A stretch of 64,000 bases of DNA, taken from positions 992,001 to 1,056,000 of the forward strand of contig NC_063021.1 of NCBI RefSeq assembly GCF_020509005.1, in the 5' to 3' direction. The position numbers and the translations under genes were made by a program. Below, in pieces: positions 13,266 through 64,000 of the stretch. Every line of letters starts with the position of its first letter. Position 1 is the first letter of the stretch. The stretch is from Fulvia fulva (lineage: Eukaryota > Ascomycota > Dothideomycetes > Mycosphaerellales > Mycosphaerellaceae). Under the pieces are notes generated by a model. That model saw nothing but the letters and a program-made list of their open reading frames with translations, had not been told where the DNA came from and made no database searches.

Positions 13266-14085
13266 TTCGATAGAACACCTCTAGTATAAGTATAGAATTT
13301 TCACCTCCGGAGACCGTAAACCGAGCGGGCCGAGCGACGAATATTAGACGAGCGGACTATAGAATAATAACTAAGCAGACTATACGACGGCGTCGAGCGG
13401 ACTACGAAACAATCTAGTGTTTACTAGCGGGTAATACGGTAGTAGGTAGACACGCGACGAAGCCTATAAGGGCCTATAAAGTACCCGGTATAGGAACGAG
13501 GGTTTTACCTAAGGTACTATCTATCCCGCTATATAACGTACCTAGTCTAATATAGTAGATTACGACGAGGAAAAGACGATAGCCTAAGTAAGGGAAAGAC
13601 GGCTATTAGGACGGGGTAAAGACGTATAATATAAGTAGATTAGTTCTATAATCGGGGAGGATCGAGGGTAGGGTAATAAGGAACTTGATATTATTTAGCA
13701 GGTAGAAACGTAAGGAGTACGCTACCCGGCATAGTGTATACCCCGAGCAAACCTACGAGGTATAGACGGCCGCTTTCTAGAGATAGGCTACGGTAACGCG
13801 AAGGGCGTCAAAATCTAGGGCGTAGTATATACTAGTAGCGACCGCTAATACTATCTATATAGCCCGAGAGGACGGATACGTATATCGGTTAATAGAGAGC
13901 ACTAAAGGGCTTAGGCCTATAGAGGTAGATATTAGCTTAAGGAGTAAATAGGGAGGGAGGGCGTAGAGGGAAGCTTTTACTCCGGACTAACCTCTCGAAA
14001 CGAGGCTATACGGTAGTACTAGATAAATAGGAAAGCGCGGTTAAGACTTGTTACCTTATCTCGTAGCTAGCTTACTAAATACAAA
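13266..14085 (+). repeat. Module X, copy 2 (5' truncated, RIPed)
   Basis: Collinear with 18336-19166 of copy 1 with CpA-to-TpA substitutions throughout, plus one small indel near the 3' end. It lacks about 250 bases of the 5' end. The 3' end is the same point as in the other copies (ATTCCTTCCTTACC), followed directly by reverse-transcriptase sequence of LINE H. Confidence 0.85.
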
Positions 14086-14155
14086 TTCCTTCCTTACCCT
14101 CGATATTATAGGAGCCTTCGATAACGTCTTATACTAAAGGCTAATATATATCCTA
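14086..14155 (+). pseudogene. LINE H, RT fragment left of LINE A
   Basis: It encodes LDIIGAFDNV-LYQRLIYIL, the first catalytic RT block, corresponding to LDISGAFDNVSHQRLIHIL of LINE T1. The next residues are found at 22352 on the far side of LINE A, after the 11-base duplication TATATATCCTA (14145-14155 and 22341-22351). Confidence 0.8.
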
Positions 14156-17100: not shown

Positions 17101-18087
17101 GTCCTAGCGATCTTTAACGCCTACCTATAGACCGGATACTACCCGATAGTATTTAAACAATCGACGATAGTAGTCCTACGTAAGCCGTAAAAGGAAGACT
17201 ATACGTAGGTAAAGTCGTACCGCCTAATTACGCTCCTTAATACTCTTAGGAAGGCGCTTAAGAAGCTAGTTATAACGAGACTCTCCGAGGCGGTAGAGGA
17301 ATACTCCTTACTCCCGGACACCTAGATAGGTACGCGCCCGTAGCGATCGACGCTATCCGCGATAGAACTTATCACCTCTTAGGTAAAGGCTATCTAGTAT
17401 AATAATAGGGACAAGGTAGTATCCTTACTTAGCCTAGACATATCGGGAGCCTTTGACTACGTGTTATACCCGCGGCTACTCTATATCCTAAGGTCGAAAG
17501 GACTCCCTAAGTAGCTTATTAACTTCGTACGGTCCTACCTCTAAAACCGTAGTACGTCGATCCTAGTCGGCTAGTATAGAAGCCTATTTTAAGCAATCTA
17601 TACTAGAATCCCGTAAGGCTTAACGCTAGTACCTATTCTGTTCCTCTTCTTTATAGCGACGCTACTCCTAGCCCTAGAATCCTAGAACACCGCTACGAGC
17701 GGCTTCGTAGACGACATAAACATCCTAGCGTAGTCTTCCTCGACTAAGGAGAACTATAGGCTACTAGAAGAGAAGTACAAGATCTACGAGGACTAGGCTA
17801 GGAGGTACGGGGCTCGGTTTATCCTAGAAAAGTACAATCTAATACACTTTACGCGCCGGCTACGGTTCTATAATATATAAGCTTCTATCTAGATATAGGG
17901 GTATACGACTAATCCGGTAAATTAGCTTAGGATCCTCGGACTATAGGTAGACCCGGCGCTACGGTAGAGGAAGTACGTATAGGTAATATTATAGAAAGTT
18001 AAATAGAATATAGCATTATACTAGAGGCTTACTACGTCTATATAGGGGGCGGACTTCCGGTAGTTACGACTTCTATATACGGCTATT
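14156..18087 (+). pseudogene. LINE A ORF1, endonuclease and RT (interrupted, RIPed)
   Basis: ORF1 ends in a CCHC cluster around 15180-15350, like that of LINE F where it is less damaged (C-F-K-C, C-S-N-C, C-A-N-C). ORF2 endonuclease is readable from about 15700. RT blocks include KKAPGPDR-like (about 17030), YRLITLLNTL (about 17218), SLDISGAFDYV (about 17430) and GFVDDINILA (about 17702), the YADD-equivalent box. Stops are of RIP type. The frame breaks at 18087 where composite X1-T1 is inserted and resumes at 21284. Confidence 0.8.
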
Positions 18088-19166
18088 GGTCGACGACGAG
18101 AATCACCTGTACGTGGTGTCGGCTACGAACCTCTCGTCTAGCTACGAGAGAGCCAAGTATTCTCACGCTGGAGCGTCGTGGGCGCGACGGGCGCGTAGCG
18201 TAGGCGAAGCCGCGGCGAACAGAGGACTACCAGCAAAACGGGTATGAAAACCATCCGACGAGCGTGTACTCGTGTCGGGAGCGAGTCCCTCTTCTTTCTA
18301 CGTGTAAGAAGGGCGCGGAACCGTGGCCTATACGCTCGACAGGACACCTCTGGTATGAGTGCAGAATTTTCACCTCCGGAGACCGCAAACCGAGCGGGCT
18401 GAGCGACGAACATTGGACGAGCGGACTACAGAACAACAACTGAGCGGACTATGCAACGGCGTCGAGCGGACTACGAAACAATCTGGTGTTTGCCAGCGGG
18501 CAATGCGGTGGGTAGGTGGACACGCGACGAAGCCTGTAAGGGCCTGTTGAACACCCGGTATGGGAACGAGGGTTTTGCCTGAGGCACTGCCTGTCCCGCT
18601 ACACAACGCACCTAGTCTGACATGGTAGATTGCGACGAGGAAAAGACGATAGCCTGAGCAAGGAAAAGACGGCTGTTAGGACGGGGAAAAGACGTACAAT
18701 GCAAGTGGATTAGTTCTGTGATCGGGGAGGATCGAGGGCAGGGTGATAAGGAACTTCATATTGGTTAGTAGGTGGAAACGCAAGGAGTACGCTGCCCGGC
18801 GTGGTGTGTGCCCCGAGCAAACCTGCGAGGCATGGACGGCCGCTTTCTAGAGATAGGCTGCGGTAACGCGAAGGGCGTCAAAACCTGGGGCGTGGTGTAC
18901 ACTGGCAGCGACGGCTGACACTGTCTGTACAGCCCGAGAGGACGGATGCGCATGTCGGTCAATAGAGAGCACTAAAGGGCTTAGGCCTATGGAGGTGGAT
19001 ATTGGCTTAAGGAGCAAACAGGGAGGGAGGGCGTAGAGGGAAGCTTTTGCTCCGGGCTAACCTCTCGAAACGAGGCTACACGGTGGTGCTAGATGAGTGG
19101 GAAAGCGCGGTTAAGACTTGTCACCTTATCTCGTAGCTAGCTTGCTAAATACGATTCCTTCCTTGC
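18088..19166 (+). repeat. Module X, copy 1, full length
   Basis: A 1079-base non-LINE sequence beginning GGTCGACGACGAG and ending ATTCCTTCCTTGCC. Near-identical to copy 3 (33855-34933, inverted) and collinear with RIPed copies 2 and 4. Open frames are all under about 95 codons, lie mostly on the minus strand and match nothing I know, so I treat it as non-coding. Structure: a perfect hairpin CTCTCGT-CTAGCT-ACGAGAG near the 5' end (about 18130); GC-rich inverted segments to 18230; three copies of GAGCGGACTA (about 18417-18470); three copies of GGAAAAGACG (about 18637-18690). No poly-A or RT homology. Confidence 0.88.
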
Positions 19167-21074
19167 CAAGGACACTGCCCTAAACACTTCAAGGAGTCAC
19201 TGACTGTGGTCTTGAGAAAACCACAGAAAGAGGACTACACAAAGCTAAAGGCATACAGACCTATTGCCTTGCTCAACACACTAGGCAAACTCCTGGAAAA
19301 GATCATAGCAGAAAGGCTGACAAACCTAGCTGAAGAACATGGAATCCTTCCTGAAGAACAGATGGGAGGCAGGAAACAAAGATCAACACTAACAGCTGTG
19401 GAACTTATCACAGAGCAGATCAAGACCCTATGGCACTTTGGGAACAACAAAGCAGCCACACTCCTCTCACTAGACATATCAGGAGCCTTTGACAATGTCT
19501 CACACCAGAGGCTGATCCACATCCTGAAACAGAAGGCTATCCCCAACTGGACAGTCCAGTTTATCCAGTCCTTCCTCAGAGGCAGAACCACAAGACTAAG
19601 ACTGGGCAGATACAAATCTGACAGCATGCCTACAGAGACAGGAATCCCACAGGGATCAACAATGTCTCCAATCCTGTTTCTCCTCTTTATGGCAGACCTG
19701 CCAGCAAAGCTAAACTCCAGAAACACATCAGCCTCAGGGTTTGTAGATGACACAAACATCCTAGCCTGGTCAGACAGCACAGAAGAGAACTGCAGAATCT
19801 TGCAGAAGAAACACAAGGAATGTGAGGAATGGGCCAGGAAACATGGAGCCAGATTTGCCCCAGAGAAGTATCAACTCATCCACTTCAGTAGAGCCAGAAA
19901 CAGACACAATATGCAAGCCCCAATCACTATTCAGGGACACACAACAGAACCCTCAAGTGAATTAAGGGTGCTAGGAATATGGATGGATCCAAAGCTCAGC
20001 TGGGGACCACAGGTCAAGAAAGCACAGGCAAGAGCAGACAACAACAGGCAATCAATTGACAGGCTTACAGCCTCCACATGGGGAGCCACATTTGCGAAAG
20101 CAAAGGTTATGTACAAGGCCATTGTGAAGCCAGCCATGCTATATGGAGCCCAGATCTGGTCAGCCCAAGACAAGATCCCAAAGAGAATTGCAGATCCCAT
20201 CAGCAGAGCCCAAGCCTCCTGTCTGAAAAAGGTGCTTGGAGCATACAAGTCAACTCCAACAAGGGTGGTCGAAATGGAGTCTGGCTCCCCACCAGCCAAG
20301 CTCTACCTTCAAGGGTTGAGATACCAGTATGCAGGAAAGACGTCTGCATACCCAGCCCAGCTAGTAATCCAGAAGGCAGTCAACAAAATCAGGAGCCAGT
20401 GCACAAGAAGGCACAGACAAGCAAGACCCAACCCAGCCCCACAGAAGCAGCAGGACCTGCAGAAGTTCAAAGAACTAACAGAACAGCTGCACCTAGCCCA
20501 GCAGGAACAGGACAGAAGGGCTCAAGGGAGAGGATCAGCAGCCAGCCAAGGGAAGAAGCAACAGTCTCTAGCTGAAAGGATGGCAGGACTCCTCTGGAAG
20601 ACTGAATGGACAAGAACCCCACAGAGGCCAGGAACCCCAAAGGCACTCCAACAGTTTGGTAGCCACAACTACCTACTGTACTCAGACCTGACCAGGTCAG
20701 AAGCAAGCATAGCAATACAAATCCGCTCTGAACACATCGGAGTCAGGGCATACCTGCATCAGAGAAAAGTCCCAGGTATCGAAGACAAGAGTTGCCCATG
20801 CGGCTACCTGTCCCAGAATGTCGAACATAGACTTCTGGTTTGCAAAGAATGGAGTACAGGGAGAGGTGAATGGAGGGCAAGGGCAAGGAACAGAAACTTC
20901 CAAGCCATGATCAGCAATAAGGGAGACCTCCAGAGAATTACAAGGTGGATCATCCACCAAGGATTTTTGGAGCAGTTCTCTCTTACTAGGGAAACAGAGA
21001 GATGGATTGAGGAGAGAAAGAAGGAGGAGGAGAGCAGGAAGAGGGGGACAACTCTAGGGTTGCAGACAAGGTAG
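19167..21074 (+). CDS. LINE T1 ORF2 fragment: reverse transcriptase, open but 5' truncated
   Basis: An uninterrupted frame that begins inside RT (the frame enters from module X with no start codon at the junction; the first possible non-ATG start is 19206). RT blocks: YRPIALLNTLGKLLEK, LLSLDISGAFDNVSH (about residue 87 from 19206), ETGIPQGSTMSPILF (about 143) and SGFVDDTNILAWSD (about 177, the catalytic box with FVDD for YADD). The C-terminal part is basic with a coiled stretch and ends in a Cys/His motif CPCGYLSQNVEHRLLVC (about 531). There is no endonuclease and no RNase H, so it cannot be autonomous. It differs from the copy at 48326-50137 by only a few residues, showing recent activity of this family. 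Confidence 0.88.
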   Translation, partial: QGHCPKHFKESLTVVLRKPQKEDYTKLKAYRPIALLNTLGKLLEKIIAERLTNLAEEHGILPEEQMGGRKQRSTLTAVELITEQIKTLWHFGNNKAATLLSLDISGAFDNVSHQRLIHILKQKAIPNWTVQFIQSFLRGRTTRLRLGRYKSDSMPTETGIPQGSTMSPILFLLFMADLPAKLNSRNTSASGFVDDTNILAWSDSTEENCRILQKKHKECEEWARKHGARFAPEKYQLIHFSRARNRHNMQAPITIQGHTTEPSSELRVLGIWMDPKLSWGPQVKKAQARADNNRQSIDRLTASTWGATFAKAKVMYKAIVKPAMLYGAQIWSAQDKIPKRIADPISRAQASCLKKVLGAYKSTPTRVVEMESGSPPAKLYLQGLRYQYAGKTSAYPAQLVIQKAVNKIRSQCTRRHRQARPNPAPQKQQDLQKFKELTEQLHLAQQEQDRRAQGRGSAASQGKKQQSLAERMAGLLWKTEWTRTPQRPGTPKALQQFGSHNYLLYSDLTRSEASIAIQIRSEHIGVRAYLHQRKVPGIEDKSCPCGYLSQNVEHRLLVCKEWSTGRGEWRARARNRNFQAMISNKGDLQRITRWIIHQGFLEQFSLTRETERWIEERKKEEESRKRGTTLGLQTR

Positions 21075-21268
21075 TCAGAGGCTAACCACCATGACACTAG
21101 TGCACCCTAATGGAAGGAAAACTGAGAACTCATGGCAAGGAAGCTATTAGAGAAGGAGAGGAGGTTTTTACCTAGGAATAGGTTTCCTACCTTATGCAGT
21201 AACATATATAGACATAAACCCGCATGGGCCGGAGGGCACCACAACGGGTAAATGAATTATCTATCTAT
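21075..21268 (+). repeat. 3' UTR and TATC tail of LINE T1
   Basis: It follows the ORF2 stop and contains GGGCCGGAGGGCACCACAAC, then four or so TATC units. The same tail, inverted, is at 48326-48530. Related but distinct tails end the A-family LINEs (GGCCGGATAGGGTCCTAG), so it marks family T. The TATC tract is probably the 3' end recognised or extended during target-primed reverse transcription. Confidence 0.8.
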
Positions 21269-21283
21269 CTATATACGGCTATT

Positions 21284-32993: not shown

Positions 32994-33854
32994 GATAGAT
33001 AGATTTGTCATTCCCCTGTTCTAGGACCCTATCCGGCCTATGCAGGTATATATCTATTGTTATGTACAAAGGGAAACCCGAATAGGTGAAAACCCTTCCC
33101 GCCCCCGACTACTCCTTGTCTAGATTAGCTTTCCCTCTGAACGTACGTAGTCCATGTCACTACCCCGTTAGCCCCCGCTCCTAGCCGGTCTCGTCGCGCT
33201 GCGTCGTGTCCTCTCTTCCTGCACTGCTCCTACTAGGCGGTACTGTTCTAGCCAGCCCTTCTCTAGTATCCAGTTCGTAATGCGCCGTAGGTCTTCAGCG
33301 TTGTTAAGAAGTGCCCCAATCGTCCGGTTCCTCGCCTTTGCCATCCACTCCCCCCTTCCTAGCGACCACCTCGGACAGACGAGGAGTGCGTGCCGTACGT
33401 TCTGGGAGCGATAGCCGCAGGGGCAGCTAGTATTCGTGTATCCTGGAACCTTCCTCCATGATAGGTACCCCTGGAGGCCGATGTGTTCGCTTCGCAGTTG
33501 GGTTGCTATGCTACTCTGTGCCCTCGTAAGGCGGTAGTGGATGAGCTTCGGGGGGTGCTTGACCGCGGATTTTGTAGCTGACCATTCCTTAGGTTGTCCC
33601 GCTGGCTGAGGGCGTCCACTATGCCCTACAACCTGGTTGTTCCACCTCTCTTTCCATAGTTGCTCTACAAACGATTTCTCACCTTCCCATTGTGTTGCTA
33701 GCTGTTCGTCCCTTGCCCGGTAGTTCGGCTCGTTTCCGGGTCGAATGCCCTTGTGCGCTGGTACTGATTCGCGGGCCCTTGCGACTGCACTGGCGATGAC
33801 CTTCTGTACTGGGTACTGTGCCGACTTGCCTAAGTAGGAGGTCCGTAGTCCCTG
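32994..33854 (-). pseudogene. LINE C: 3' fragment of an A-family LINE
   Basis: Carries the C-terminal end of ORF2 with the Cys/His region (inverse of about 33380-33430, CPCGYRSQNVRHALLV-like) and the 3' UTR with (TAGA)n. It has no RT core. Nearly identical to stretches of 51054-51900, especially 51300-51660. It begins at CCAGGGACTACGGACCTCC, where X3 ends. Confidence 0.85.
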
Positions 33855-34933
33855 GCAAGGAAGGAATCGTATTTAGCAAGCTAGCTACGAGATAAGGTGA
33901 CAAGTCTTAACCGCGCTTTCCCACTCATCTAGCACCACCGTGTAGCCTCGTTTCGAGAGGTTAGCCCGGAGCAAAAGCTTCCCTCTACGCCCTCCCTCCC
34001 TGTTTGCTCCTTAAGCCAATATCCACCTCCATAGGCCTGAGCCCTTTAGTGCTCTCTATTGACCGACATGCGCATCCGTCCTCTCGGGCTGTACAGACAG
34101 TGTCAGCCGTCGCTGCCAGTGTACACCACGCCCCAGGTTTTGACGCCCTTCGCGTTACCGCAGCCTATCTCTAGAAAGCGGCCGTCCATGCCTCGCAGGT
34201 CTGCTCGGGGCACACACCACGCCGGGCAGCGTACTCCTTGCGTTTCCACCTACTAACCAATATGAAGTTCCTTATCACCCTGCCCTCGATCCTCCCCGAT
34301 CACAGAACTAATCCACTTGCATTGTACGTCTTTTCCCCGTCCTAACAGCCGTCTTTTCCTTGCTCAGGCTATCGTCTTTTCCTCGTCGCAATCTACCATG
34401 TCAGACTAGGTGCGTTGTGTAGCGGGACAGGCAGTGCCTCAGGCAAAACCCTCGTTCCCATACCGGGTGTTCAACAGGCCCTTACAGGCTTCGTCGCGTG
34501 TCCACCTACCCACCGCATTGCCCGCTGGCAAACACCAGATTGTTTCGTAGTCCGCTCGACGCCGTTGCATAGTCCGCTCAGTTGTTGTTCTGTAGTCCGC
34601 TCGTCCAATGTTCGTCGCTTAGCCCGCTCGGTTTGCGGTCTCCGGAGGTGAAAATTCTGCACTCATACCAGAGGTGTCCTGTCGAGCGTATAGGCCACGG
34701 TTCCGCGCCCTTCTTACACGTAGAAAGAAGAGGGACTCGCTCCCGACACGAGTACACGCTCGTCGGATGGTTTTCATACCCGTTTTGCTGGTAGTCCTCT
34801 GTTCGCCGCGGCTTCGCCTACGCTACGCGCCCGTCGCGCCCACGACGCTCCAGCGTGAGAATACTTGGCTCTCTCGTAGCTAGACGAGAGGTTCGTAGCC
34901 GACACCACGTACAGGTGATTCTCGTCGTCGACC
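33855..34933 (-). repeat. Module X, copy 3, full length, un-RIPed
   Basis: Inverse of 18088-19166 with very few differences over 1079 bases, and the same two ends. As with copy 1, the small open frames have no recognisable domain. Confidence 0.9.
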
Positions 34934-35162: not shown

Positions 35163-36217
35163 GGTCGACGACGAGAATCACCTATACGTAGTATCGGCTA
35201 CGAACCTCTCGTCTAGCTACGAGAGAGCCAAGTATTCTTACGCTAGAGCGTCGTAGGCGCGACGGGCGCGTAACGTAGGCGAAGCCGCGGCGAATAGAGG
35301 ACTACTAGCAAAACGGGTATAAAAACTATCCGACGAGCGTGTACTTGTGTCGGGAGCGAGTCCCTCTTCTTTCTACGTATAAGAAGGGCGCGGAACCGTG
35401 GCCTATACGCTCGATAGGACACCTCTAGTATAAGTATAGAATTTTCACCTCCGGAGACCGTAAACCGAGCGGGCTAAGCGACGAACATTAGACGAGCGGA
35501 CTATACGATGGCGTCGAGCGGACTACGAAACAATCTAGTATTTGCTAGCGGGCAATACGGTGGGTAGGTAGACACGCGACGATGCCTATAAGGGCCTATT
35601 AAACACCCGGTATAGGAACGAGGGTTTTACCTAAGGCACTACCTATCCCGCTACATAACGCACCTAGTCTAATATAGTAGATTACGACGAGGAAAAGACG
35701 ATAGCCTAAGTAAGGAAAAGACGGCTATTAGGACGGGGAAAAGATGTATAATATAAGTAGATTAGTTCTATAATCGGGGAGGATCGAGGGTAGGGTAATA
35801 AGGAACTTTATATTAGTTAGTAGGTAGAAGCGTAAGGAGTACGCTACCCGGCGTAGTGTGTGCCCCGAGCAAACCTACGAGGTATAGACGGCCGCTTTCT
35901 AGAGATAGGCTACGGTAACGCGAAGGGCGTCAAAACCTAGGGCGTAGTATATACTAGTAGCGACGGCTAACACTATCTATATAGCCCGAGAGGACGGATG
36001 CGTATGTCGGTCAATAGAGAGCACTAAAGGGCTTAGGCCTATAGAGGTGGATATTAGCTTAAGGAGCAAATAGGGAGGGAGGGCGTAGAGGGAAGCTTTT
36101 GCCCCGGGCTAACCTCTCGAAACGAGGCTATACGGTAGTACTAGATAAGTAGGAAAGCGCGGTTAAGACTTGTTACCTTATCTCGTAGCTAGCTTACTAA
36201 ATACGATTCCTTCCTTA
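35163..36217 (+). repeat. Module X, copy 4, RIPed, full 5' and 3' ends
   Basis: Begins GGTCGACGACGAGAATCACC and ends ATTCCTTCCTTAC. Collinear with copy 1 with C-to-T and G-to-A changes and a short internal deletion near 35506 that removes one of the GAGCGGACTA repeats. Confidence 0.88.
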
Positions 36218-38430
36218 CTAAGCGATATAAACAGCTCTACTCCCCTAGCCCCTAGTATTACGGTCTAATAGGAGGTGCCCGAGGGAGAAGTTGCCGCTAT
36301 ACTAAGGAAGTTACCGGCGAAGAAAGCCCCGGGGCCGGATAGGATCCTAAACGAGCTACTAAAGAAGTGTAGAGATCAACTAGCCCTAGTAGTTATAGCG
36401 ATCTTTAACGCCTACCTATAGACCGGATACTACCCGATAGCTTTTAAACAATCGACGATAGTAGTCCTACGTAAGCCGTAGAAGGAAGACTATACGTAGG
36501 TAAAGTCGTACCGCCTAATTGCGCTCCTTAATACTCTTAGGAAGGCGCTTAAGAAGCTAGTTATAACGAGACTCTCTAAGGCGGTAGAGGAACACTCCCT
36601 ACTCCCGGACACCTAGATAGGTACGCGCCTATAGCGATCGACGCTATCCGCGATAGAACTTATCACCTCTTAGGTAAAGGCTATCTAGTATAAGAATAGG
36701 GACAAGGTAGCTTCCTTACTTAGCCTAGACATATCGGGAGCCTTCGACTACGTGTTATACCCGCGGCTACTCTATATCCTAAGGTCGAAAGGACTCCCTA
36801 AGTAGCTTGTTAACTTCCTACGGTCCTACCTCTAAAACCGTAGTACGTCGATCCTAGTCGGCTAGTATAGAAGCCTATTTTAAGTAGTCTATACTAGAAT
36901 CCCGTAAGGCTTAACGCTAGTACCTATTCTATTCCTCTTCTTTATAGCGACGCTACTCCTAGCCCTAGAATCCTAGAACACCGCTACGAGCGGCTTCGTA
37001 GACGACACAAACATCCTAGCGTAGTCTTCCTCGACTAAGGAGAACTATAGGCTACTAGAAGAGAAGTATAAGATCTACGAGGACTAGGCTAGGAGGTACG
37101 GGGCTCGGTTTACCCTAGAAAAGTACAATCTAATACACTTTACGCGCCGGCTACGGTTCTATAATATATAAGCTTCTATCTAGATATAGGGACACACGAC
37201 TAACCCGGTAAATCAGCTTAGGATCCTCGGACTATAGGTAGACCTAGCGCTACGGTAGAGGAAGTACGTATAGGCAATATTACGGAAAGTTAAATAGAAT
37301 ATAGCATTATACTAGAGGCTTACTACGTCTATATAGGGGGCGGACTTCTAGTAGTCACGACTTCTATATACGGCTATTATACGGCTAGTCCTTACCTATA
37401 GTAGCTAAGTATAGTCCTTAGGCGAGAGGGTCTACCTATCGAAGGGACTCGTCGCGCCGCTAGCGAAGATCTAAAACTAATACCTAAGGAAGGTCACCGG
37501 GGTATATAAGTCGATACTAACGAGGATACTTAAGTACGAGACCGCTATACCGCCGATCGACCTATATATCTAGGGACTACGGACCTCCTACTTAGGCAAG
37601 TCGGTATAGTACCTAGTATAGAAGGTCATCGCTAGTACAGTCGTAAGGGCCCGCGAATTAGTACTAGCGTATAAGGGTATTCGACCCGGAAACAAGCCGA
37701 ACTACCGGGTAAGGGACGAATAGCTAGTAATATAATAGGAAGGTAAGAAATCGTTTATAGAGCAACTATAGAAAGAGAGGTAGAACAACTAGGTTATAGG
37801 GTATAGTAGACGCCCTTAGCTAGCGGGACAACCTAAGGAATAGTTAGCTACAAAATCCGCGGTCAAGTACCCCCCGAAGCTTATCTACTACCGCCTTACG
37901 AGGGTATAGAGTAGTATAGTAACCTAACTACGAAGCGAACACATCGGCCTCTAGGGGTACCTATTATAGAGGAAGGTTCTAGGATACACGAATACTAGCT
38001 ACCCCTACGGCTATCGCTTTTAGAACGTACGGTACGTACTCCTCGTCTATCCGAGGTAGTCGCTAGGAAGGGGGGAGTAGATAGTAAAGGCGAGGAACCG
38101 GACGATTAGGCTACTTCTTAATAACGCTAAGGACCTACGGCGTATTACGAACTAGATACTAGAGAAGGGCTAGCTAGAACAGTACCGCCTAGTAGGAGTA
38201 GTATAGGAAGAGAGGACACGACGTAGCGCGACGAGACCGGCTAGGAGCGGGGGCTAACGGGGTAGTAATATAGACTACGTACGTTTAGAGGGAAAGCTAA
38301 TCTAGATAAGGAGTAGTCGGGGGCGGGAAGGGTTTTTACCTATTCGGGTTTCCCTTTATATATAACAAAAGATATATACCTATATAGGCCGGATAGGGTC
38401 CTAGAATAGGGGAATGACAAATCTATCTAT
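36217..38430 (+). pseudogene. LINE B: RT and 3' end of an A-family LINE (RIPed)
   Basis: Aligns to LINE A from about 16931 to 18087 and on through 21284-22340 without interruption, so it shows the intact arrangement across the X1-T1 insertion point (about 37366). RT blocks are recognisable (GFVDDTNILA at about 36990). It ends in the A-family 3' UTR and (TATC)n. Confidence 0.85.
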
Positions 38431-45439: not shown

Positions 45440-48325
45440 TCTCGATATCCGTAGAAGAGCTACGACGGGATCTATAAGAGCGTAGATTATTAATAATAAC
45501 CGTATTAAGAGATTACGGCGTATAACAAAAAACATGCGACTCGGTATAAGAGACTACTATAGGCTAAGTAGTACCTAATATAGTACGACCCTAAGGATAG
45601 CGAGGCTCGCTACTAGCTATACGACTAGTAGTATAGCGCGAGTCTATATTTAATATATAGACTTAAGGATAAACGTAAGAGTAGTAGTAGACTACCGACG
45701 ACGCTATATAGTAGAAACTCGAGAACTTATAGCGCCTAGTTACTAACCTACCTAGTAAGTTTAACTTGTACGACCTTCTGAATAATAACGAGATCTAAGA
45801 CGAGAACGGCGTTACTATAGCGGTAGTCGACTACGACGACGACGGCGCGACCGAGGAAGGTAAGGGCGAGGATATATAATAAGTCGCGAAAACCCTCCGA
45901 ATTCCCGTAAACGACCTCCTTTAACTCGATATCGACTAGCTCGTTAAGCTCCTAGTAGAGCCCGAGACCGCTACGGCTATCTACTTTATCCTACGACGTA
46001 CTTTATCCTACGACGCGCCGAGTAAGAGTATAGGAACGTGATATAGATAGCGACTATCCTCTACGAGTAGTTAGGCAAAGTAGGGTAAGAGCTTAGGAGA
46101 TAGAAGAGTCACGACTAATAGATACGTAATAAATACAACACCCTAGTTAAGGAACTCGACAACCTAAGGGCCCGACCTAAGGTATTATCGAATGTAGTAA
46201 TGTCCGTAGAGATTAGTATACTTACCGCGAAGAACGACACCCTAAAGAAGTAAGCTAAGGAGGTACTTAGGTAGTTATCTAATAATAACTCGAAGATTAA
46301 GACCCTCGAATTCGATCTCGATACGTATAAGACAGAAGCTTAAACCTACTAGAACGACATTAAGCATCTTAATAAGTCGTAGTAGACTTAGGTAGATGAT
46401 CTTAAGAAGTAACTCGAAGACCGCCGAGGCCGCTCTCGAGTACGATCCTTACTATCTCGCGCTATATTATAGCGTCGTACCCTATAGAACGGCCGAACCC
46501 TATCTAAGGACAATAATAAGGATAATAATAGAGCTAGTAATAAGGACGAGGAGGACAAGGTAGCTCGCCGTACTACTAGAAAGAAGGCTAAGAAGTCTAT
46601 ACGTAAGGATAATAGTAACGACTCCGATCTATTATCTAAGGAGTTAGAGAAGGACTCGGAGTTAGATAGCGATACTCGTGCTTACCGCCGCTCTTCTAAG
46701 AAGAAGAAGCTAGTCTACGACTTCGAGTCTCTAGTTAAGTACGATCTAGACCTTAGCTAGCCCTTTAAGACTTAGCGTAGTATAGATAAGCTAAAGAAGT
46801 TCGTCGGTACTATCGATAGTAAGCTATCTAGACCCTCCCTCGAGAAGTTCTTCTCCGAGTTAGAGACTATTATCGACTATACGGTCTTTCGCGATAAGAA
46901 GGTAGTACTTAAGTTCGTATATAACTTACTAGCCTTACTAGGTAATACTTAGGAACTAGTTAGACTAAAGATCCCTACTATCTCGGGTAGCCTAACTAGT
47001 AGTAAGAAGACGTATAAGGGTATTAACGACCTTATCTAGGAACTCGCTAAGCGATACGGAGACCGTAACCTAATTAGTAGGGCTCGTAATCGCCTAACTA
47101 ACCTTAAGATAGATAATAAGGACAGCTTCTAGACCTTCTTCCCTAAGTAGCGCTAGAATGCTAATATCCTAGGCCTTAAGGGTAAAGATGTGATAGATAA
47201 CCTATAACGTAAGCTAACTATTCGCTATCTTAATAAGTATCTTAACTTCCGTCCTAAATCGTTATAAGAGATAATCGACAATCTCTATTAGATAGATAAG
47301 GACTTTAGGATCCTCGACGCTCTCTACCTACGCTCCGAGAAGCTAAAGAACGATAAGAAGGACGGTAATAAGGACAATAAGGACGACAAGCTAGTAGGTT
47401 TAGGCTCTAATAAGCCGACCCGTAAGGCTTAGTCTACCCGACCTAAACTATTTAAGAGTAGCCTTAGTAAGACTATAGACAAAGCTAAGAACACTCGCTA
47501 TATACGTCAGAGCCTCTATAAGAAGTGTCGTAAGCCCGGTTACTGCCTATAGTAGCGTACTTACGAGCTGTTCGAGTACGAGATACTAGTACGTCTAGGT
47601 ACTAACGCTAGCGGTACTACCGTTATACTACCGGCGGAAAATGCCTAGTCTACTACTTAAGCGTAATAACTAGTAGACATAAAAAGGAGAATATAAGATA
47701 TAACGAAGAGGCACTACTAGTAAAGCTACCCGAAGGGCTTAAGCTATTATTATATATTCTTAGAATAGTAGAAATAGAATATAACCCTATTATCGGCTTA
47801 TACCTCGTAATACTAGGGATAGCTAATAGGCAAAATGTATTTACTTTCCTTAATAACGGTACTAATTCTAAGTATATCGACTTCTCCTATACGTAAAAAC
47901 ACAATCTACCCTTAATTAAGCTTAATAACCTACTAGCCCTTAGGTTAGTAAACGGCTCGATAGCCGCGGAAATAATAGAATACCGTATAAGTCTAGAACT
48001 TATACTCGGCAATAGTAATAAGGAGACTAGAACCTTCTAGGTTATATATCTAGAGTATAACATTGTACTAGGCAGGCCCTAGTATAATAAACACTAGCTA
48101 GGTATCTACTTTACGTTAGGCACTATAACCCTCGACTCGGAGCACTATAAGGAGTATTGCCTATAGGATAGCGAGCTAGTCTAGGTATAGAGTGTTAACG
48201 ATAAGTAGGAACCGGTAATTACTAAGTAGACCTTCGAACCTACCCTAAAGACCCGACTAGCGTATTAAGCTACTATCGAAGAAGATAACAATAGAGATTT
48301 TGTCTAGACTATAACCTCTAATATA
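45440..48325 (+). pseudogene. Gypsy D gag and protease (RIPed)
   Basis: A charged N-terminal part with an Asp-rich stretch (about 45820-45880), a long coiled coil (about 46120-46420), a Lys/Arg/Asp-rich linker (46500-46700) and a capsid-like region (about 46800-47350). One zinc knuckle shows CRKPGYC (about 47527-47550). The protease-like region follows from about 47780, with FQVIYLEYNIVLGRPQYN-like residues near 48040. Interrupted at 48325 by LINE T2 and continued at 50152. Confidence 0.65.
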
Positions 48326-50137
48326 GATAGATAGATAGATAGATGATTCATTTACCCGTTGTGGTGCCCTCCGGCCTATGCGGGTTTATGTCTATATATG
48401 TTACTGTATAAGGTAGGAAACCTATTCCTAGGTAAAAACCTCCTCTCCTTCTCTAATAGCTTCCTTGCCATGAGTTCTCAGTTTTCCTTCCATTAGGGTG
48501 CACTAGTGTCATGGTGGTTAGCCTCTGACTACCTTGTCTGCAACCCTAGAGTTGTCCCCCTCTTCCTGCTCTCCTCCTCCTTCTTTCTCTCCTCAATCCA
48601 TCTCTCTGTTTCCCTAGTAAGAGAGAACTGCTCCAAAAATCCTTGGTGGATGATCCACCTTGTAATTCTCTGGAGGTCTCCCTTATTGCTGATCATGGCT
48701 TGGAAGTTTCTGTTCCTTGCCCTTGCCCTCCGTTCACCTCTCCCTGTACTCCATTCTTTGCAAACCAGAAGTCTATGTTCGACATTCTGGGACAGGTAGC
48801 CGCATGGGCAACTCTTGTCTTCGATACCTGGGACTTTTCTCTGATGCAGGTATGCCCTGACTCCGATGTGTTCAGAGCGGATTTGTATTGCTATGCTTGC
48901 TTCTGACCTGGTCAGGTCTGAGTACAGTAGGTAGTTGTGGCTACCAAACTGTTGGAGTGCCTTTGGGGTTCCTGGCCTCTGTGGGGTTCTTGTCCATTCA
49001 GTCTTCCAGAGGAGTCCTGCCATCCTTTCAGCTAGAGACTGTTGCTTCTTCCCTTGGCTGGCTGCTGATCCTCTCCCTTGAGCCCTTCTGTCCTGTTCCT
49101 GCTGGGCTAGGTGCAGCTGTTCTGCTAGTTCTTTGAACTTCTGCAGGTCCTGCTGCTTCTGTGGGGCTGGATTGGGTCTTGCTTGTCTGTGCCTTCTTGT
49201 GCACTGGCTCCTGATTTTGTTGACTGCCTTCTGGATTACTAGCTGGGCTGGGTATGCAGACGTCTTTCCTGCATACTGGTATCTCAACCCTTGAAGGTAG
49301 AGCTTGGCTGGTGGGGAGCCAGACTCCATTTCGACCACCCTTGTTGGAGTTGACTTGTATGCTCCAAGCACCTTTTTCAGACAGGAGGCTTGGGCTCTGC
49401 TGATGGGATCTGCAATTCTCTTTGGGATCTTGTCTTGGGCTGACCAGATCTGGGCTCCATATAGCATGGCTGGCTTCACAATGGCCTTGTACATAACCTT
49501 TGCTTTCGCAAATGTGGCTCCCCATGTGGAGGCTGTAAGCCTGTCAATTGATTGCCTGTTGTTGTCTGCTCTTGCCTGTGCTTTCTTGACCTGTGGTCCC
49601 CAGCTGAGCTTTGGATCCATCCATATTCCTAGCACCCTTAATTCACTTGAGGGTTCTGTTGTGTGTCCCTGAATAGTGATTGGGGCTTGCATATTGTGTC
49701 TGTTTCTGGCTCTACTGAAGTGGATGAGTTGATACTTCTCTGGGGCAAATCTGGCTCCATGTTTCCTGGCCCATTCCTCACATTCCTTGTGTTTCTTCTG
49801 CAAGATTCTGCAGTTCTCTTCTGTGCTGTCTGACCAGGCTAGGATGTTTGTGTCATCTACAAACCCTGAGGCTGATGTGTTTCTGGAGTTTAGCTTTGCT
49901 AGCAGGTCTGCCATAAAGAGGAGAAACAGGATTGGAGACATTGTTGATCCCTGTGGGATTCCTGTCTCTGTAGGCATGCTGTCAGATTTGTATCTGCCCA
50001 GTCTTAGTCTTGTGGTTCTGCCTCTGAGGAAGGACTGGATAAACTGGACTGTCCAGTTAGGGATAGCCTTCTGTTTCAGGATGTGGATCAGCCTCTGGTG
50101 TGAGACATTGTCAAAGGCTCCTGATATGTCTAGTGAG
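48326..50137 (-). mobile_element. LINE T2: young, un-RIPed, 5' truncated
   Basis: Flanked by the 14-base duplication TAACCTCTAATATA (48312-48325 and 50138-50151) in Gypsy D. The 3' end with TATC repeats (here GATA) is at 48326 and the truncated 5' end at 50137, inside the first catalytic RT block. The 1812 bases are nearly identical to 19455-21268 (LINE T1). Unlike T1 it has no module X. Confidence 0.92.
48529..50137 (-). CDS. LINE T2 ORF2 fragment: reverse transcriptase, open but 5' truncated
   Basis: Open from the element's truncated end to the stop at 48529, same frame as T1; the first internal Met is at 49977. It contains ETGIPQGSTMSPILF, SGFVDDTNILAWSD and the C-terminal CPCGYLSQNVEH motif. 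It differs from T1 in a handful of residues (for example Leu for Pro in LLAKL, Ala for Thr in KELAEQ, Arg for Trp in GERRARA). It lacks the LDISGAFD block and everything before, so it is dead on arrival though undamaged. Confidence 0.85.
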
Positions 50138-51053: not shown

Positions 51054-52249
51054 AGATAGATAGATTTGTCATTCCCCTGTTCTAGGACCCTATCCGGCCT
51101 ATGCAGGTATATATCTATTGTTATGTACAAAGGGAAACCCGAATAGGTGAAAACCCTTCCCGCCCCCGACTTCTCCTTATCTAGATTAGCTTTCCCTCTA
51201 AACGTACGTAGTCTATATCACTATCCCGTAAGCCCCCGCTCCTAGCTAGTCTCGTCGCGCTACGCCGTATCCCCTCTTTCTATACTACTCCTACTAGGCG
51301 GTACTGTTCTAGCCAGCCCTTCTCTAGTATCCAGTTCGTAATGCGCCGTAGGTCTTCAGCGTTGTTAAGAAGTGCCCCAATCGTCCGGTTCCTCGCCTTT
51401 GCCATCCACTCCCCCCTTCCTAGCGACCACCTCGGACAGACGAGGAGTGCGTGCCGTACGTTCTGGGAGCGATAGCCGCAGGGGCAGCTAGTATTCGTGT
51501 ATCCTGGAACCTTCCTCCATGATAGGTACCCCTGGAGGCCGATGTGTTCGCTTCGCAGTTGGGTTGCTATGCTACTCTGTGCCCTCGTAAGGCGGTAGTG
51601 GATGAGCTTCGGGGGGTGCTTGACCGCGGATTTTGTAGCTGACCATTCCTTAGGTTGTCCCGCTAGCTAAGGGCGTCCACTATGCCCTACAACCTAGTTG
51701 TTCCACCTCTCTTTCCATAGTTGCTCTACAAACGATTTCTTACCTTCCTATTGTGTTGCTAGCTGTTCGTCCCTTGCCCGGTAGTTCGGCTCGTTTCCGG
51801 GTCGAATGCCCTTATACGCTAGTACTGATTCGCGGGCCCTTGCGACTGCACTGGCGATGACCTTCTATACTAGGTACTGTGCCGACTTGCCTAAGTAGGA
51901 GGTCCGTAGTCCCTAGATGTATAGGTCGATCGGCGGTATAGCGGTCTCGTGCTCAAGCATCCTCGTTAGTGTCGACTTATATGCCCCGGTGACCTTCCTT
52001 AGGCATTGGTTTTGGATCTTCGCTAGCGGCGCGACGAGTCCCTTCGATAGGCAGGCCCTCTCGCCTAAGGACCACACTTGGCTGCCATAGGTAAGGACTG
52101 GCCGTACAATAGCCGTATATAGAAGTCGTGACTACCGGAAGTCCGCCCCCTATGTGGACGTAGTGAGCCTCTGGCATGATGCCATATTCTGTTCAGCTTT
52201 CCGTAATATTGCCTATACGTACTTCCTCCACCGTAGCGCCGGGTCCACC

Positions 52250-53460
52250 TATAGTCCGAGGATCCTGAGCTGATTTGCCGGGTTAGTCGTGTGCCCCTAT
52301 ATCTGGATAGAAGCTTGTATATTGTGGAACCGTGGCCGGCGCGTAAAGTGTATCAGATTGTACTTTTCTGGGGCAAACCGAGCCCCGTGCCTCCTAGCCC
52401 AGTCCTCGCAGATCTTGTGCTTCTCTTCTAGTAGCCTACAGTTCTCCTTAGTCGAGGAAGACTACGCTAGGATGTTTGTGTCGTCTACGAAGCCGCTCGC
52501 AGCGGTGTTCTGGGATTCTAGGGCTGGGAGCAGCGTCGCTATAAAGAAGAGGAACAGAATAGGTACTAGCGTTGAGCCTTACGGGATTCCAGTGTAGACT
52601 ACTTGAAATGGGCTTCTATACTGGCCGACTAGGATCGACGTACTGCGGTTTTGGAGGTAGGACCGTACGAAGTTGACAAGCCACTTAGGGAGTCCTTTCG
52701 ACCTTAGGATATAGAGAAGCCGCGGGTGTGACACGTAGTCGAAGGCTCCCGATATGTCTAGGCTAAGTAAGGAAGCCACCTTGTCCCTATTCTTATACCA
52801 GATGGCCTTTACCTAAGAGGTGATAAGTTCCATCGCGGATAGCGTCGATCGCTATAGGCGCGCACCTATCTAGGTGTCCGGGAATAGGGAGTGTTCCTCT
52901 GCCGCCTCGGAGAGTCTCGTTATAACCAGCTTCTCAAGCGCCTTCCCAAGAGTGTTAAGGAGCGCAATTGGGCGGTACGACTTTACCTGCGTATAGTCTT
53001 CCTTCTGCGGCTTACGTAGGACCACTGTCGTCGATTGTTTAAAAGCTATCGGGTGGTATCCGGTCTGTAGGTAGGCGTTGAAGATCGCTGCAACTGCTAG
53101 GGCTAGTTGATCTCTACACTTCTTTAGTAGCTCGTTTGGGATCCCATCCGGCCCCGGGGCTTTCTTCGCCGGCAACTTCCTTAGCACAGCGGTAACTTCT
53201 CCCTCGGACACCTCCTGTTGGACCGCGATGCTAGGGGCTAGGGGAGTAGAGCTGTTTATGTCGCTTAGATTAGCCTCGACTAGGGGTGGGAAGAATTTGC
53301 TAGCCAGTAGACGCGCCTTGGCCTCGGGGTCGCTAACCGGGCCACTAGGCGATTGTAGCGCTAGGATAGAGAAGGAGGGGCCCTGTGTAGGGTCCTGTCG
53401 GGCCCATTTCGCTAGCTTCCACATCCTCTCTGGCTTGCCGGCGATTTCTTCCACTATGGC
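52250..53460 (-). pseudogene. LINE F reverse transcriptase (broken)
   Basis: Two large open pieces: 53454-52870 contains KKAPGPDGIPNELLKKC and the YRPIALLNTLGKALEK block; 52779-52579 contains ASLLSLDISGAFDYVSH and YILRSKGLPKWLVNFV. The catalytic FVDDTNILA is at about 52500-52470 (minus), shortly after a break. The intervening stops are TAG from CAG or TGG. Confidence 0.85.
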
Positions 53461-53463
53461 CCT

Positions 53464-54560
53464 CTAGCCGACTGCTTTCTCCCTCCGTATTATGGCTTTC
53501 TTCTGTTGGCATGCCTCCCTGTATACGTTCCAGGCCTCCTCGCTATAGCTGCTCGTCCACACCCGGCGGGCTCTCCTTGCTTCTCTTACTACCGCAGTGC
53601 ACTCCGGCGTCCAGTATAGTTTGGACCATGTCGTTAGTTGGGCAAGCGGAACGTGAAGTGAGGTCGCTTTTCTTATTTCGTCTGTCAACCCCTGGACTGC
53701 TTCGTCTATCTCGTCTTTACTGTTGTATTGCTGCTGCGCGATCTAGACTAGCCTCTTAGAGTCATCGAGGTACGCCTAGATATTGGCCTAGTGGGCCTTT
53801 CCCTAGTTTGGCTTAGGGGTTCTCGCTAGTGTGCGTTGTATCTGTGTCGTAATAGAGGTCCTGACTAGCATGTGGTCTAACGACGCCTCGAGTTCATGTT
53901 CGATCCCATAGTAGGTTACCGTGTGGTAGTAGCTATCTAAGATCTAGGAGAGGTCGATCGTGCCTTAGAGTCCCCCTCTCTTCCAGGTGCCCAGGTCCTT
54001 CGGGGTATTAAGGGCAATTGCGTTGCTCGCCATCAAGTCGAGTACTTCGTCGGCTATAGGGTGCGGCTGTATAAGGCTTTCCTAGGAATGGTGGTGTATG
54101 TTGAAGTCTCCTACTACGATGTGGCACCCTTGTCTCTTAAGCGCACTGTCTAGGTGTCTGCAGACCCCTAGGTCGCGGCTAGACCTCGAGGCTAGCGGTT
54201 GCATGTATAGGTTGTGTATCCAGGTGCTACCCACGTGGAGGGAGGTAATATCGCCCCCGCCTTCTTCGTCTGCGTAGTACACTACCTCCTAGTCGGATTC
54301 TAGTATGTCCTTGCTGACATAGAAGCACGTACGGGGTCTACCGTCGCCTCGTAGGCATGTCGTGTAGCCTAGTGACTTGCAGGTCGTTAGTCTCTTATAG
54401 TGCGGGTTAATCTATAGCTCCTAGATTGTAAGGACGTGGTGGACGCGCGGGTCCGCCTCGTATAGGAAATGGTTCTAGACTATATCCTTGCTATAGTTAA
54501 CGTTATACTAGATGATGCTAAGCGTGTCGAGGCTAGTTATCGGCATCGACAATTATTTCC
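53464..54560 (-). pseudogene. LINE F endonuclease region (broken)
   Basis: Includes an open piece (54282-54082) with HIVVGDFNIHHHS, the conserved GDFN of apurinic-type endonucleases, and the link to RT (53688-53464, LYWTPECTAVVREARRARR). The endonuclease would nick the target to prime reverse transcription. Confidence 0.8.
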
Positions 54561-54689
54561 TCTATATCGTCCTGTGTCCTACTGCCCTGTACGTCCTGGT
54601 CTACGCCTATCGGCTGTGTACTAAAGGGGAGCCGGGCCTGGTTAGATTCCCTCGCCGTAGCTAGCAGAGCACGTGGCCTCCCGTACGCC

Positions 54690-55900
54690 CTAGGCTACGC
54701 ATCCTTTACATCGTTCTCGGCCCTAGGGCGCTTGTGCCCGACCGCCGCTAGTTGGTTCCGGTGTGGGCTAGCCTTACGGTCGCCGTAGAATCTTGGGGCG
54801 ACGGTTCTGTTTGTGATTGCCTTGTTTTTCGCTAGTTTCCGCTGTGGGCATTCCGCACTATACGATAGGTGGTGCCCCGGACAGTTCGCGTACCGTCTCG
54901 TAGTCGATGTACAGTCCCTAGACATATAGTCTCCTACACAGTTCGAGCAGGCCTACTTGTTTGTGCACGTGTAGGTTTGGTGTCTATACTGTTGGCATTT
55001 GAAGCATTGGAGGACACGAAAGGATAAGGAGTGCTTTTCTACTGTCTTGAGGCTGTATTGCCAGACCAGGCCTTGTTCTATCGCTAGATCCGCCGCTTTC
55101 GCGTCTTATAGCCATACTATTAGCGCCGAGGCCTTCTTGCCTTCTAGCCATTTCCTATAGAGCCAAGTCGCCTTCTGGATTAGAGAGTTAAGAGTGACCG
55201 GGTTGTCCTCTTAGAGAGCGCGTAGGTGACCCTGGTTGGTTAGGTCAAACTCCTTGGGCATGTCGTGGACTAGGATCGTGAATTGTTTCGTTAAGACCTT
55301 CGCTAATGCCGCAACCTTAGATGCCCACTGTGGCTGTGCCTCTAGGTGCCTCCTAGTAGTAGCAGAGCTAGTATAGATCTGTAGAGTGCCGTTAGACTGT
55401 TGGTTCACTACGACTACCCCTAGTTAGTTGATTCGTTAGGCGAGCTCCTTGTTCGATAGCTTCGCAACTTCGGCCTAGTCTTCCTTTACTACAATACGGA
55501 TCGTAACTATATTGTACGTAAGGCGGGGGCCTAGTATCGATGCCGCGACCGATGTCTAGCTATAGGGGTGTTGATCCCGGGTGGCCTTACTAATCTCCTA
55601 GGACGTCGTCCTTATTTCTTATTACCCTCGGTAATACGACAGTACAAGCGCCGTGCGTAGCTAAGTGATTATTACCTATAGAGACCGGTAAGGGAGCTGA
55701 TCGTTAGTTTCTATACTTTTTACGTCCTCTATAAGTTGCTACTAGTTGTCTTAGGGGGGCTTTACCTATAGGGCCGTAGGCGCCGTTAGTACCGTAGCCT
55801 AGGCTACTATTACCTAGGAGTTGCCTAATGTAGCTAGGCACCTCCGCGGCGTTTAGAGCTAAAGAAACAGGGTGAAGAGAGCTTTAAGCTATCTAGATTA
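54690..55900 (-). pseudogene. LINE F ORF1, gag-like protein with CCHC knuckles (broken)
   Basis: Open pieces: 55408-55211 (GTLQIYTSSATTRRHLEAQPQWASKV-type RNA-binding core, then ILVHDMPKEFD) and 54925-54695 (knuckles C-T-S, C-PGHHLSYSAEC). A further knuckle, CFKCQQYRHQTYTC, is at about 55000-54955. ORF1 proteins bind the LINE RNA. Confidence 0.8.
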
Positions 55901-56048
55901 AATAAGGTAGAACTCCCTTAGTCCTAGGGGTAGTGGCCTGCTTTATATATCGTTAGAATGGCCTTGATAAGAGCTTTCGAATGTGTCGTGTTTTGGCGTA
56001 GAGATCGATAGTCCGGATTTACGTCAGGTTGTTGCCCGCGCGAGATAT

Positions 56049-59000: not shown

Positions 59001-59900
59001 CATTTTCTATAGAGCTAAGTCGCCTTCTAGATTAGAGAGTTAAGAGTGACCGGGTTGTCCTCTTAGAGAGTACGTAGGTAACCTTAGTTAGTTCGGTCGA
59101 ACTCTTTAGGTATATCGTAGACTAGGATAATAAATTGCTTCGTTAAGACCTTCGCTAATACCGTAACCTTAGATACCTACTATAGCTATACCTCTAGGTG
59201 CCTCCTAGTAGTAGTAGAGCTAGTATAGATCTATAGAGTACCGTTAGACTATTAGTTCACTACGACCACCCCTAGTTAGTTAATTCGTTAGGCGAGCTCC
59301 TTGTTCGATAGCTTCGTAACTTCGGCCTAGTCTTCCTTTACTACAATACGGATCGTAACTATATTGTACGTAAGGCGGGGGCCTAGTATCGATGCCGCGA
59401 CCGATGTCTAGCTATAGGGGTGTTGATCCCGGGTGGCCTTACTAATCTCCTAGGACGTCGTCCTTATTTCTTATTACCCTCGGTAATACGACAGTACAAG
59501 CGCCGTGCGTAGCTAAGTGATTATTACCTATAGAGACCGGTAAGGGAGCTGATCGTTAGTTTCTATACTTTTTACGTCCTCTATAAGTTGCTACTAGTTG
59601 TCTTAGGGGGGCTTTACCTATAGGGCCGTAGGCGCCGTTAGTACCGTAGCCTAGGCTACTATTACCTAGGAGTTGCCTAATGTAGCTAGGCACCTCCGCG
59701 GCGTTTAGAGCTAAAGAAACAGGGTGAAGAGAGCTTCAAGCTATCTAGATTAAATAAGGTAGAACTCCCTTAGTCCTAGGGGTAGTGGCCTGCTTTATAT
59801 ATCGTTAGAATGGCCTTGATAAGAGCTTTCGAATGTGTCGTGTTTTGGCGTAGAGATCGATAGTCCGGATTTACGTCAGGTTGTTGCCCGCGCGAGATAT
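56049..59900 (-). pseudogene. Tandem unit 2: truncated A-family LINE, RIPed
   Basis: Same content as unit 1 without indels, but RIPed from end to end, so none of ORF1, endonuclease or RT is open. The only sizeable frame (57110-57319, plus) is a shadow. At about 59085-59105 it carries the subfamily variant shared with 11577-12665, not that of LINE F. Confidence 0.85.
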
Positions 59901-62900: not shown

Positions 62901-63752
62901 ACCGGGTTGTCCTCTTAGAGAGTACGTAGGTAACCTTAGTTAGTTCGGTCGAACTCTTTAGGTATATCGTAGACTAGGATAATAAATTGCTTCGTTAAGA
63001 CCTTCGCTAATACCGTAACCTTAGATACCTACTATAGCTATACCTCTAGGTGCCTCCTAGTAGTAGTAGAGCTAGTATAGATCTATAGAGTACCGTTAGA
63101 CTATTAGTTCACTACGACCACCCCTAGTTAGTTAATTCGTTAGGCGAGCTCCTTGTTCGATAGCTTCGTAACTTCGGCCTAGTCTTCCTTTACTACAATA
63201 CGGATCGTAACTATATTGTACGTAAGGCGGGGGCCTAGTATCGATGCCGCGACCGATGTCTAGCTATAGGGGTGTTGATCCCGGGTGGCCTTACTAATCT
63301 CCTAGGACGTCGTCCTTATTTCTTATTACCCTCGGTAATACGACAGTACAAGCGCCGTGCGTAGCTAAGTGATTATTACCTATAGAGACCGGTAAGGGAG
63401 CTGATCGTTAGTTTCTATACTTTTTACGTCCTCTATAAGTTGCTACTAGTTGTCTTAGGGGGGCTTTACCTATAGGGCCGTAGGCGCCGTTAGTACCGTA
63501 GCCTAGGCTACTATTACCTAGGAGTTGCCTAATGTAGCTAGGCACCTCCGCGGCGTTTAGAGCTAAAGAAACAGGGTGAAGAGAGCTTTAAGCTATCTAG
63601 ATTAAATAAGGTAGAACTCCCTTAGTCCTAGGGGTAGTGGCCTGCTTTATATATCGTTAGAATGGCCTTGATAAGAGCTTTCGAATGTGTCGTGTTTTGG
63701 CGTAGAGATCGATAGTCCGGATTTACGTCAGGTTGTTGCCCGCGCGAGATAT
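59901..63752 (-). pseudogene. Tandem unit 3: truncated A-family LINE, RIPed
   Basis: Nearly base-identical to unit 2. Differences noted are single transitions (for example near 61305, 61548 and 63587). Shared RIP changes mean units 2 and 3 were copied from one already RIPed unit, or that conversion has kept them alike. Confidence 0.85.
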
Positions 63753-64000
63753 CTTTCTATAATATTACCTATACGTACTTCCTCTACCGTAGCGCCGGGT
63801 CTACCTATAGTCCGAGGATCCTAAGCTAATTTACCGGGTTAGTCGTATACCCCTATATCTAGATAGAAGCTTATATATTATAGAACCGTAGCCGGCGCGT
63901 AAAGTGTATTAGATTGTACTTTTCTAGGATAAACCGAGCCCCGTACCTCCTAGCCTAGTCCTCGTAGATCTTATACTTCTCTTCTAGTAGCCTATAGTTC
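63753..64000 (-). pseudogene. Tandem unit 4, cut by the window end
   Basis: The first 248 bases of a fourth unit, with a few transitions that set it apart from units 2 and 3 (near 63905, 63938 and 63971), some like LINE F. The array length beyond is unknown. Confidence 0.8.

Follow-up and report, generated by a model that had tools for sequence, protein, structure and literature searches.

A 1079-nt noncoding unit joined to the 5' side of truncated LINE insertions in Fulvia fulva

A noncoding unit of 1079 nt, here called X, forms the 5' part of truncated LINE insertions in the genome of Fulvia fulva and has been inserted about 200 times. Exact ends, a motif at the junction, independent recurrence of junction sites, target duplications and fusions of X to a second X (X') were read from the DNA itself. 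Our observations lean towards X being a retroposed RNA that enters the genome as the 5' piece of a LINE insertion by means of a predicted ribozyme and a template jump of the LINE RT.

The X unit and its insertions in the window

The window, the whole analysed stretch of 64,000 nucleotides, contains the reference copy of X (haplotype 0) at positions 18088 to 19166 on the plus strand, and an identical copy is present elsewhere in the genome (L002). The D-lactate dehydrogenase encoded in the window has its closest named hit in Fulvia fulva. The longest ATG frame in X has 91 aa and lies on its minus strand. BLAST with the reference copy as query gave four copies in the window. Besides the query itself, these were an intact copy at 33855-34933 on the minus strand (99.7% identity), a RIP-mutated copy on the plus strand (89.7% identity at 35163-36216; 90% as annotated, 35163-36217), and a match at 13267-14095 covering X 249-1077 with 87% identity. 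The latter is an incomplete X, a rearranged relic on the plus strand lacking the 5' part and annotated at 13267-14085. As the sequence-only reading of this DNA had claimed, the 3' ends of the four copies agreed, within two X bases, and three of the four shared the same first base.

The reference copy is followed by a 5'-truncated LINE, termed H, with a TCTA tail (19167-21267, plus strand; RT ORF 19206-21074, PF00078). X and H together are enclosed by a 16-bp target duplication (TCTATATACGGCTATT), with the 5' copy at 18072-18087 and the 3' copy at 21268-21283, both on the plus strand. This insertion (18088-21267) is nested in an F2 copy, the sequence of which resumes at 21268. For the intact minus-strand X, the LINE part consists of the final 861 bp of an F2-type element (32994-33854, minus strand) and the target duplication has 14 bp, and the RIP-mutated X is followed by an F2-type LINE part (36218-38430, plus strand) with a 12-bp duplication. 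The duplications at these three copies flank X plus LINE, which confirmed the earlier view that a fusion is one insertion. It had also been stated that each X is fused to a different LINE point. This held for the three copies, but the relic did not fit the description: its partner is only about 70 bp of F1 (14087-14155, plus strand), beginning at the hot spot F1 3378, and the 4-kb LINE that follows is a separate F2-type element. At the end of the window (52107-64000) lies a head-to-tail array of F2-type LINE on the minus strand, with units of 3852 bp, that runs past the window end.

Ends, partners and junctions of X across the genome

The genome of 67,169,167 bases in 14 contigs was searched for X 3' ends, counted as exact matches only, with mutated copies outside the counts. 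The 23-mer with which X ends (...TTGC) occurred 179 times and was followed by C in 129 cases and by T or A, with G twice, in the other 50. Nineteen further copies lacked the terminal C, with T (18) or A (1) directly after TTG, giving 198 exact X 3' ends. Onward reading covered 156 of these (25 TTGC and 17 TTG[T/A] ends lie outside it). In 149 cases X aligned into LINE DNA and in two into a second, truncated X; the remaining five comprised four LINE-like continuations and one without assigned partner (L183). Thus, counting and junction mapping over the whole genome found no LINE-free X among the 156 ends read onward. The 57 ends in long loci, counted by genome position, all fell into LINE groups, and of 95 ends read by 28 bases, 88 matched LINE and two matched X within 4 mismatches. 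Longer reads assigned L117, L150 and L180 to LINE (BLAST), and L099 appeared LINE-like by eye from its translation. X was followed by LINE F1 at L089, L090 and L080, and by a LINE, judged by eye, at L018. A match to X in IMG/VR was not found with one exact 25-mer.

The 5' end was equally constant. It was examined in 30 copies chosen solely for their 3' end, namely the first 30 places, which are all on C1 and include one tandem array of three. X was complete from base 1 to 1079 in all 30, and the 5' flank was mostly a CTATATA-like target sequence. In the array (C1:8826062-8835422, L053-L055), the three X 3' ends are spaced by 4667 and 4671 bp on the same strand; as they share junction and 5' flank, a single X-LINE insertion seems to have been duplicated in tandem. 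Tandem X-X units were considered as a source of the X 3' end and rejected; the pattern search returned one unrelated chance match.

Clustering separated the LINEs into the H lineage, F1/F2, a fourth group and a fifth, small one, which may belong to one of the others. F1 and F2 were merged by nested copies; their aligned RT stretches are about 67% alike. By this clustering X is joined to at least three, probably four, LINE lineages, which corrects the two families assumed before. The LINE Tad1 is described as abundant in both genome papers of Cladosporium (Fulvia) fulvum (PMC10823647, PMC9453070), where it makes up 16.3% of the genome (PMC9453070).

A full-length F1 (L076:3167-8310) encodes an ORF1 of 470 aa, for which Pfam gave no match, and an ORF2 of 1118 aa with EN and RT. 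The open frames overlap by four bases at L076:4757-4760. Full-length F1 (L076, L077) starts with ATTGATCTCG and has its own 5' UTR without X, and L091-L094, with intact ORF2, extend to F1 position 17 or 24, also without X. In full-length F1, the only family in which full-length ends were read, X is therefore not a 5' UTR at a fixed junction, in agreement with the earlier proposal that X is a separate unit. Two types of F1 start were seen: ATTGATCTCGATCGAT before AGAAGCG (L076:3167, L077, L079; three exact genome copies) and GGC directly before AGAAGCG (L091-L093). Near-identical F1 copies whose ORF2 is long and open number more than 30 and stand alongside many RIP-mutated ones, and judged by its sequence F1 appears recently active. 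Among the first 100 of 245 F1 3' ends, 29 had an exact X end upstream, 32 reached the endonuclease without an exact X end (one of these, L080, carries X with a TTGT end), and 39 had neither.

The LINE bases left behind at the junction were legible at 134 of 152 ends (57 + 95), where a LINE or X copy spans the site; four long loci and 14 of the 28-base reads were left out for want of a good donor. C was found at position -1 and Y at -2 in all 134 events, and R at -3 in 124. Counted as distinct sites (76), C and Y were present in 76/76 each and R in 68/76, against an RYC background of 6.3% (P about 4e-72). The base after the junction was C in 89 events, T or A in 43 and G in two. Extra bases were absent: 48 of 49 junctions aligned from the first base and the other has a RIP-type first base. 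Since X ends in C and the LINE has C at -1, the boundary may equally be drawn as X...UUG followed by RY|C. At L080, where X has no terminal C, the LINE base at -1 is still C, and L018 looks alike by eye. An origin of the motif in microhomology was rejected: X and LINE share no more than the C at -1, X has G at -2, where the LINE always has Y, and X ends reading TT[CT] numbered zero genome-wide.

A small sample of LINE truncations without X was compared, namely seven of F1 (L081-L087, left from nine fetched after L080 was dropped as X-fused and L088 because it continues as LINE) and the H-family copy at 48319-50137 (minus strand) of the window. The target duplication was checked in the window copy only (14 bp); the edge of L084 is uncertain and L087 comes from a RIP-mutated copy. 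None of the eight breaks at RYC| (Fisher P about 3e-7 against the X-fused sites). Four of the eight start at R|YC (P about 0.001), an excess that is suggestive only, and two of these four lie at X-fused sites, with the X fusion two bases further on (L083/L125, L085/L014). This suggested that the site may be a property of the LINE RT or the LINE RNA and not of X.

Target duplications of 12-16 bp were found in the ten insertions read whole (seven loci and three window copies), the ones at which they are readable, as most other loci stop before the LINE tail. X haplotypes are few (109C/111A; 314A/569A; 314A/733G/895C; the window type; an older type), and the common ones are each joined to many sites and lineages. 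Conversely, more than one X haplotype is found at each of the shared sites F1 2910, 1750 and 3637, which indicates that sites recur independently; the maximum was ten events at one site (F1 3378). Read from these haplotypes, a few X sources feed many separate events.

In two cases X runs into X': at L116 (C3:1273018) into X 298 after GACC, and at L188 (C11:2169483-2170781) into X 166 after AACC. In L188, the expected end of X' is C11:2170419, and F1 was matched at C11:2170781, exactly where a LINE from 2910 predicts it, so that by its coordinates L188 is a tripartite X-X'-LINE element. GACC and AACC before the X' starts imply that the same junction rule applies when X is the template left. Moreover, the X-X' junctions, together with the hot spots shared among different haplotypes, point to joining at the RNA or cDNA level and do not fit internal deletion or recombination, the case that had been named as speaking against the earlier reading.

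A predicted ribozyme at the 5' end of X

Positions 1-77 of X (18088-18164 of the window, plus strand) can be folded as an HDV-like ribozyme with a cut before base 1, a fold read by hand and then put into a descriptor. The predicted helices are P1 (1-7/31-37, with G1.U37), P2 (11-16/72-77), P3 (18-20/28-30), P1.1 (22-23/38-39) and P4 (44-50/57-63), and J4/2 (AGCCAAGU) would contain the catalytic C66. The layout includes a 3-bp P3, an L3 of 7 nt, a possible P1.1 and CNAAG in J4/2. A wobble of the G1.U37 type is typical of HDV ribozymes.

Applied to 82,369 different 120-mers starting with G, the strict descriptor, whose limits were fixed after the fold had been read by eye, matched in eight distinct X contexts, each time at X base 1 and nowhere else, and gave no match in 20,000 shuffles. 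Both intact X copies of the window match at base 1. A relaxed descriptor gave 32 matches, of which eight lie at X base 1, nine at X base 2 and 15 at other places; a clean result is thus confined to the strict form. Rfam reported no ribozyme in X and only an unrelated match below threshold. When pseudoknots are left out, the first 79 nt take a predicted fold other than that of the ribozyme, with a stability no greater than that of shuffles (z -0.5). The fold of X as a whole is less stable than those of 20 simple shuffles (-374 versus -390, sd 8.6). The X copies are nearly identical, with differences of the RIP type, and too alike for covariation. In view of the limits set afterwards, the silence of Rfam, the fold results and the likeness of the copies, the HDV-like ribozyme with cleavage at the first base of X is a prediction and no more. 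It would explain the constant 5' end of X. HDV-like folds at the 5' ends of R2 templates help insertion, as described in PMC11331408. At the other end of X, a fold of the last 160 bases suggests a possible pairing of the 3' tail UUCCUUCCUUG with the upstream CAGGGAGGGAG, with the terminal C as a one-base overhang.

Routes to the chimera and known systems

In the route we favour, an X transcript, possibly produced by read-through from upstream, would cut itself by the HDV-like ribozyme, which would fix base 1 and leave a protected end. The LINE machinery would nick a CTATATA-like site and begin to copy the LINE RNA at its TCTA tail. On reaching an RYC site, the RT would quit the LINE RNA and resume on the free 3' end of an X RNA (UUGC-3'), X would be copied to its 5' end, and the joining of the cDNA to the target would yield one insertion with one target duplication. 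The template left may be X RNA itself, giving X-X'-LINE. The jump of the RT from LINE RNA to the X 3' end, as put forward in the sequence-only reading, is thus supported, and is favoured as the more probable over prior joining of the RNAs.

The junctions without extra bases count against template jumping, as they are more exact than expected of it. This exactness, and a rule that resides in the uncopied bases, make joining at the RNA level a serious rival. Here an RtcB- or Trl1-like activity would ligate the X 3' end to LINE RNA that had been cut at RY|C or RYC|, or X would itself attack the LINE RNA, and the chimera would then be copied by the LINE. We regard this as possible but clearly the less probable of the two. 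The exact junctions and the strict three-base motif among uncopied bases suit it, RYC is exactly what pairs, wobble included, with the 5'-GGU of X, and RtcB ligation is discussed for U6/LINE-1 chimeras (PMC13174262). However, it presupposes a cutter of LINE RNA, the X-X' fusions demand that X RNA was cut and rejoined as well, and R|YC starts occur in half of the X-less truncations, two of them at X-fused sites.

In an unlikely variant, X would be a ribozyme that acts in trans and becomes spliced by its own activity to LINE RNA. The 5' GGU, freed by self-cleavage, would pair with RYC (C with G1, C/U with G2, A/G with U3, the observed letters), the X 3' end would be joined to the next LINE base, and the LINE machinery would fix the chimera, a reaction similar to the first step of intron reverse splicing. 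If this is true, WEIRD, the X-like unit of Magnaporthe discussed below, should begin with GGC, since in the 15 fitting rows of the published Table 3 its sites are GYC, with G as the only purine.

Still less probable is that a few X-LINE elements spread as units by retrotransposition and so yielded the copies. Recurrent junctions (up to ten events per site), the tandem array at C1:8.826-8.835 Mb and haplotypes common to some hot-spot copies (L062/L043; L005/L029) are what it would produce, and it may have added some copies. As the main route it is largely refuted by the 76 distinct sites, by different X haplotypes at the same junction and by single haplotypes with many junctions and lineages. 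That X belongs to a LINE as its regular 5' UTR, with variable junctions arising by internal deletion or later recombination, is highly improbable even though some LINE 5' UTRs typically carry a 5' ribozyme and a few X copies (L113, L117) are fused close to the 5' terminus of a further LINE lineage, because full-length F1 has a 5' UTR of its own, one X serves several lineages, the X end is fixed and comes with motif and target duplications, and no full-length F2 or H element with X at a fixed junction was seen (full-length ends having been read for F1 only).

Template jumping is also the model that Gogvadze et al. (2007) proposed for the MINE elements of Magnaporthe (PMC2104539). Our facts fit this model. 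They add to it a predicted ribozyme, which would fix and may protect the 5' end of X, and they define the site that is left more sharply. According to that paper, which gives GenBank EF585235-EF585237 for MINE transcripts, MINE consists of WEIRD (1113 nt) and an MGL LINE, has the motif GCC*A/U, and no solo WEIRD was found. Both systems have a full-length noncoding RNA of about 1.1 kb placed 5' of a variably truncated LINE in the same orientation, target duplications (10-20 bp in MINE, 12-16 bp in X chimeras), no solo copy found and a known tripartite element. MINE junctions follow GCC or GTC, and by our own count 15 of the 18 rows of Table 3 (PMC2104539) fit RYC. The precedent named in the sequence-only reading was therefore apt in size, truncation pattern, the upstream part of the motif and in that no solo unit was found, and X-LINE is a larger and sharper version of WEIRD/MINE. 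The two differ in the base after the junction (mostly C for X, A/U in the MINE consensus), in number (198 exact X ends against 33 bipartite MINE chimeras) and in partners, X having at least three LINE lineages and forming X-X'-LINE. An HDV-like 5' end is predicted in X and absent from the MINE description as available (PMC2104539). The host of X, a member of the Dothideomycetes, belongs to a different fungal class from the MINE host, and the likeness, as described, is one of layout.

In the accessible parts of the open-licence literature, fungal LINE chimeras appear only in PMC2104539 and PMC3978060, and no HDV-like ribozyme is linked there with WEIRD or with such chimeras; the C. fulvum genome paper (PMC10823647) does not contain the words chimeric, WEIRD or template switch. 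The HDV-like fit of the first 77 nt, a modelled feature, is new here. The finding made in one fungus in 2007 is thus extended to a large natural dataset with 134 mapped RNA-to-LINE junctions, a strict motif, hot spots and X-to-X jumps, by which the nature of WEIRD-like RNAs and the choice between RT jumping and RNA joining become testable in simple in-vitro assays.

SINEs are noncoding and mobilised by LINEs. X is likewise noncoding and LINE-mobilised; unlike SINEs, it was not seen without a LINE among the 156 ends read and brings no LINE tail itself. R2 and L1Tc/ingi resemble X in having a ribozyme, predicted in X, at the exact 5' end of the retrotransposed RNA; as far as described (PMC3774820, PMC4035085), their ribozyme is the element's own, whereas that of X belongs to a noncoding unit borrowed by LINEs. 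In the mammalian U6/LINE-1 chimeras, a noncoding RNA likewise lies in sense orientation 5' of LINE-1, and RT jump and RNA ligation have both been proposed (PMC13174262). Unlike U6, X has no known cellular role, and its LINE site has a strict motif.
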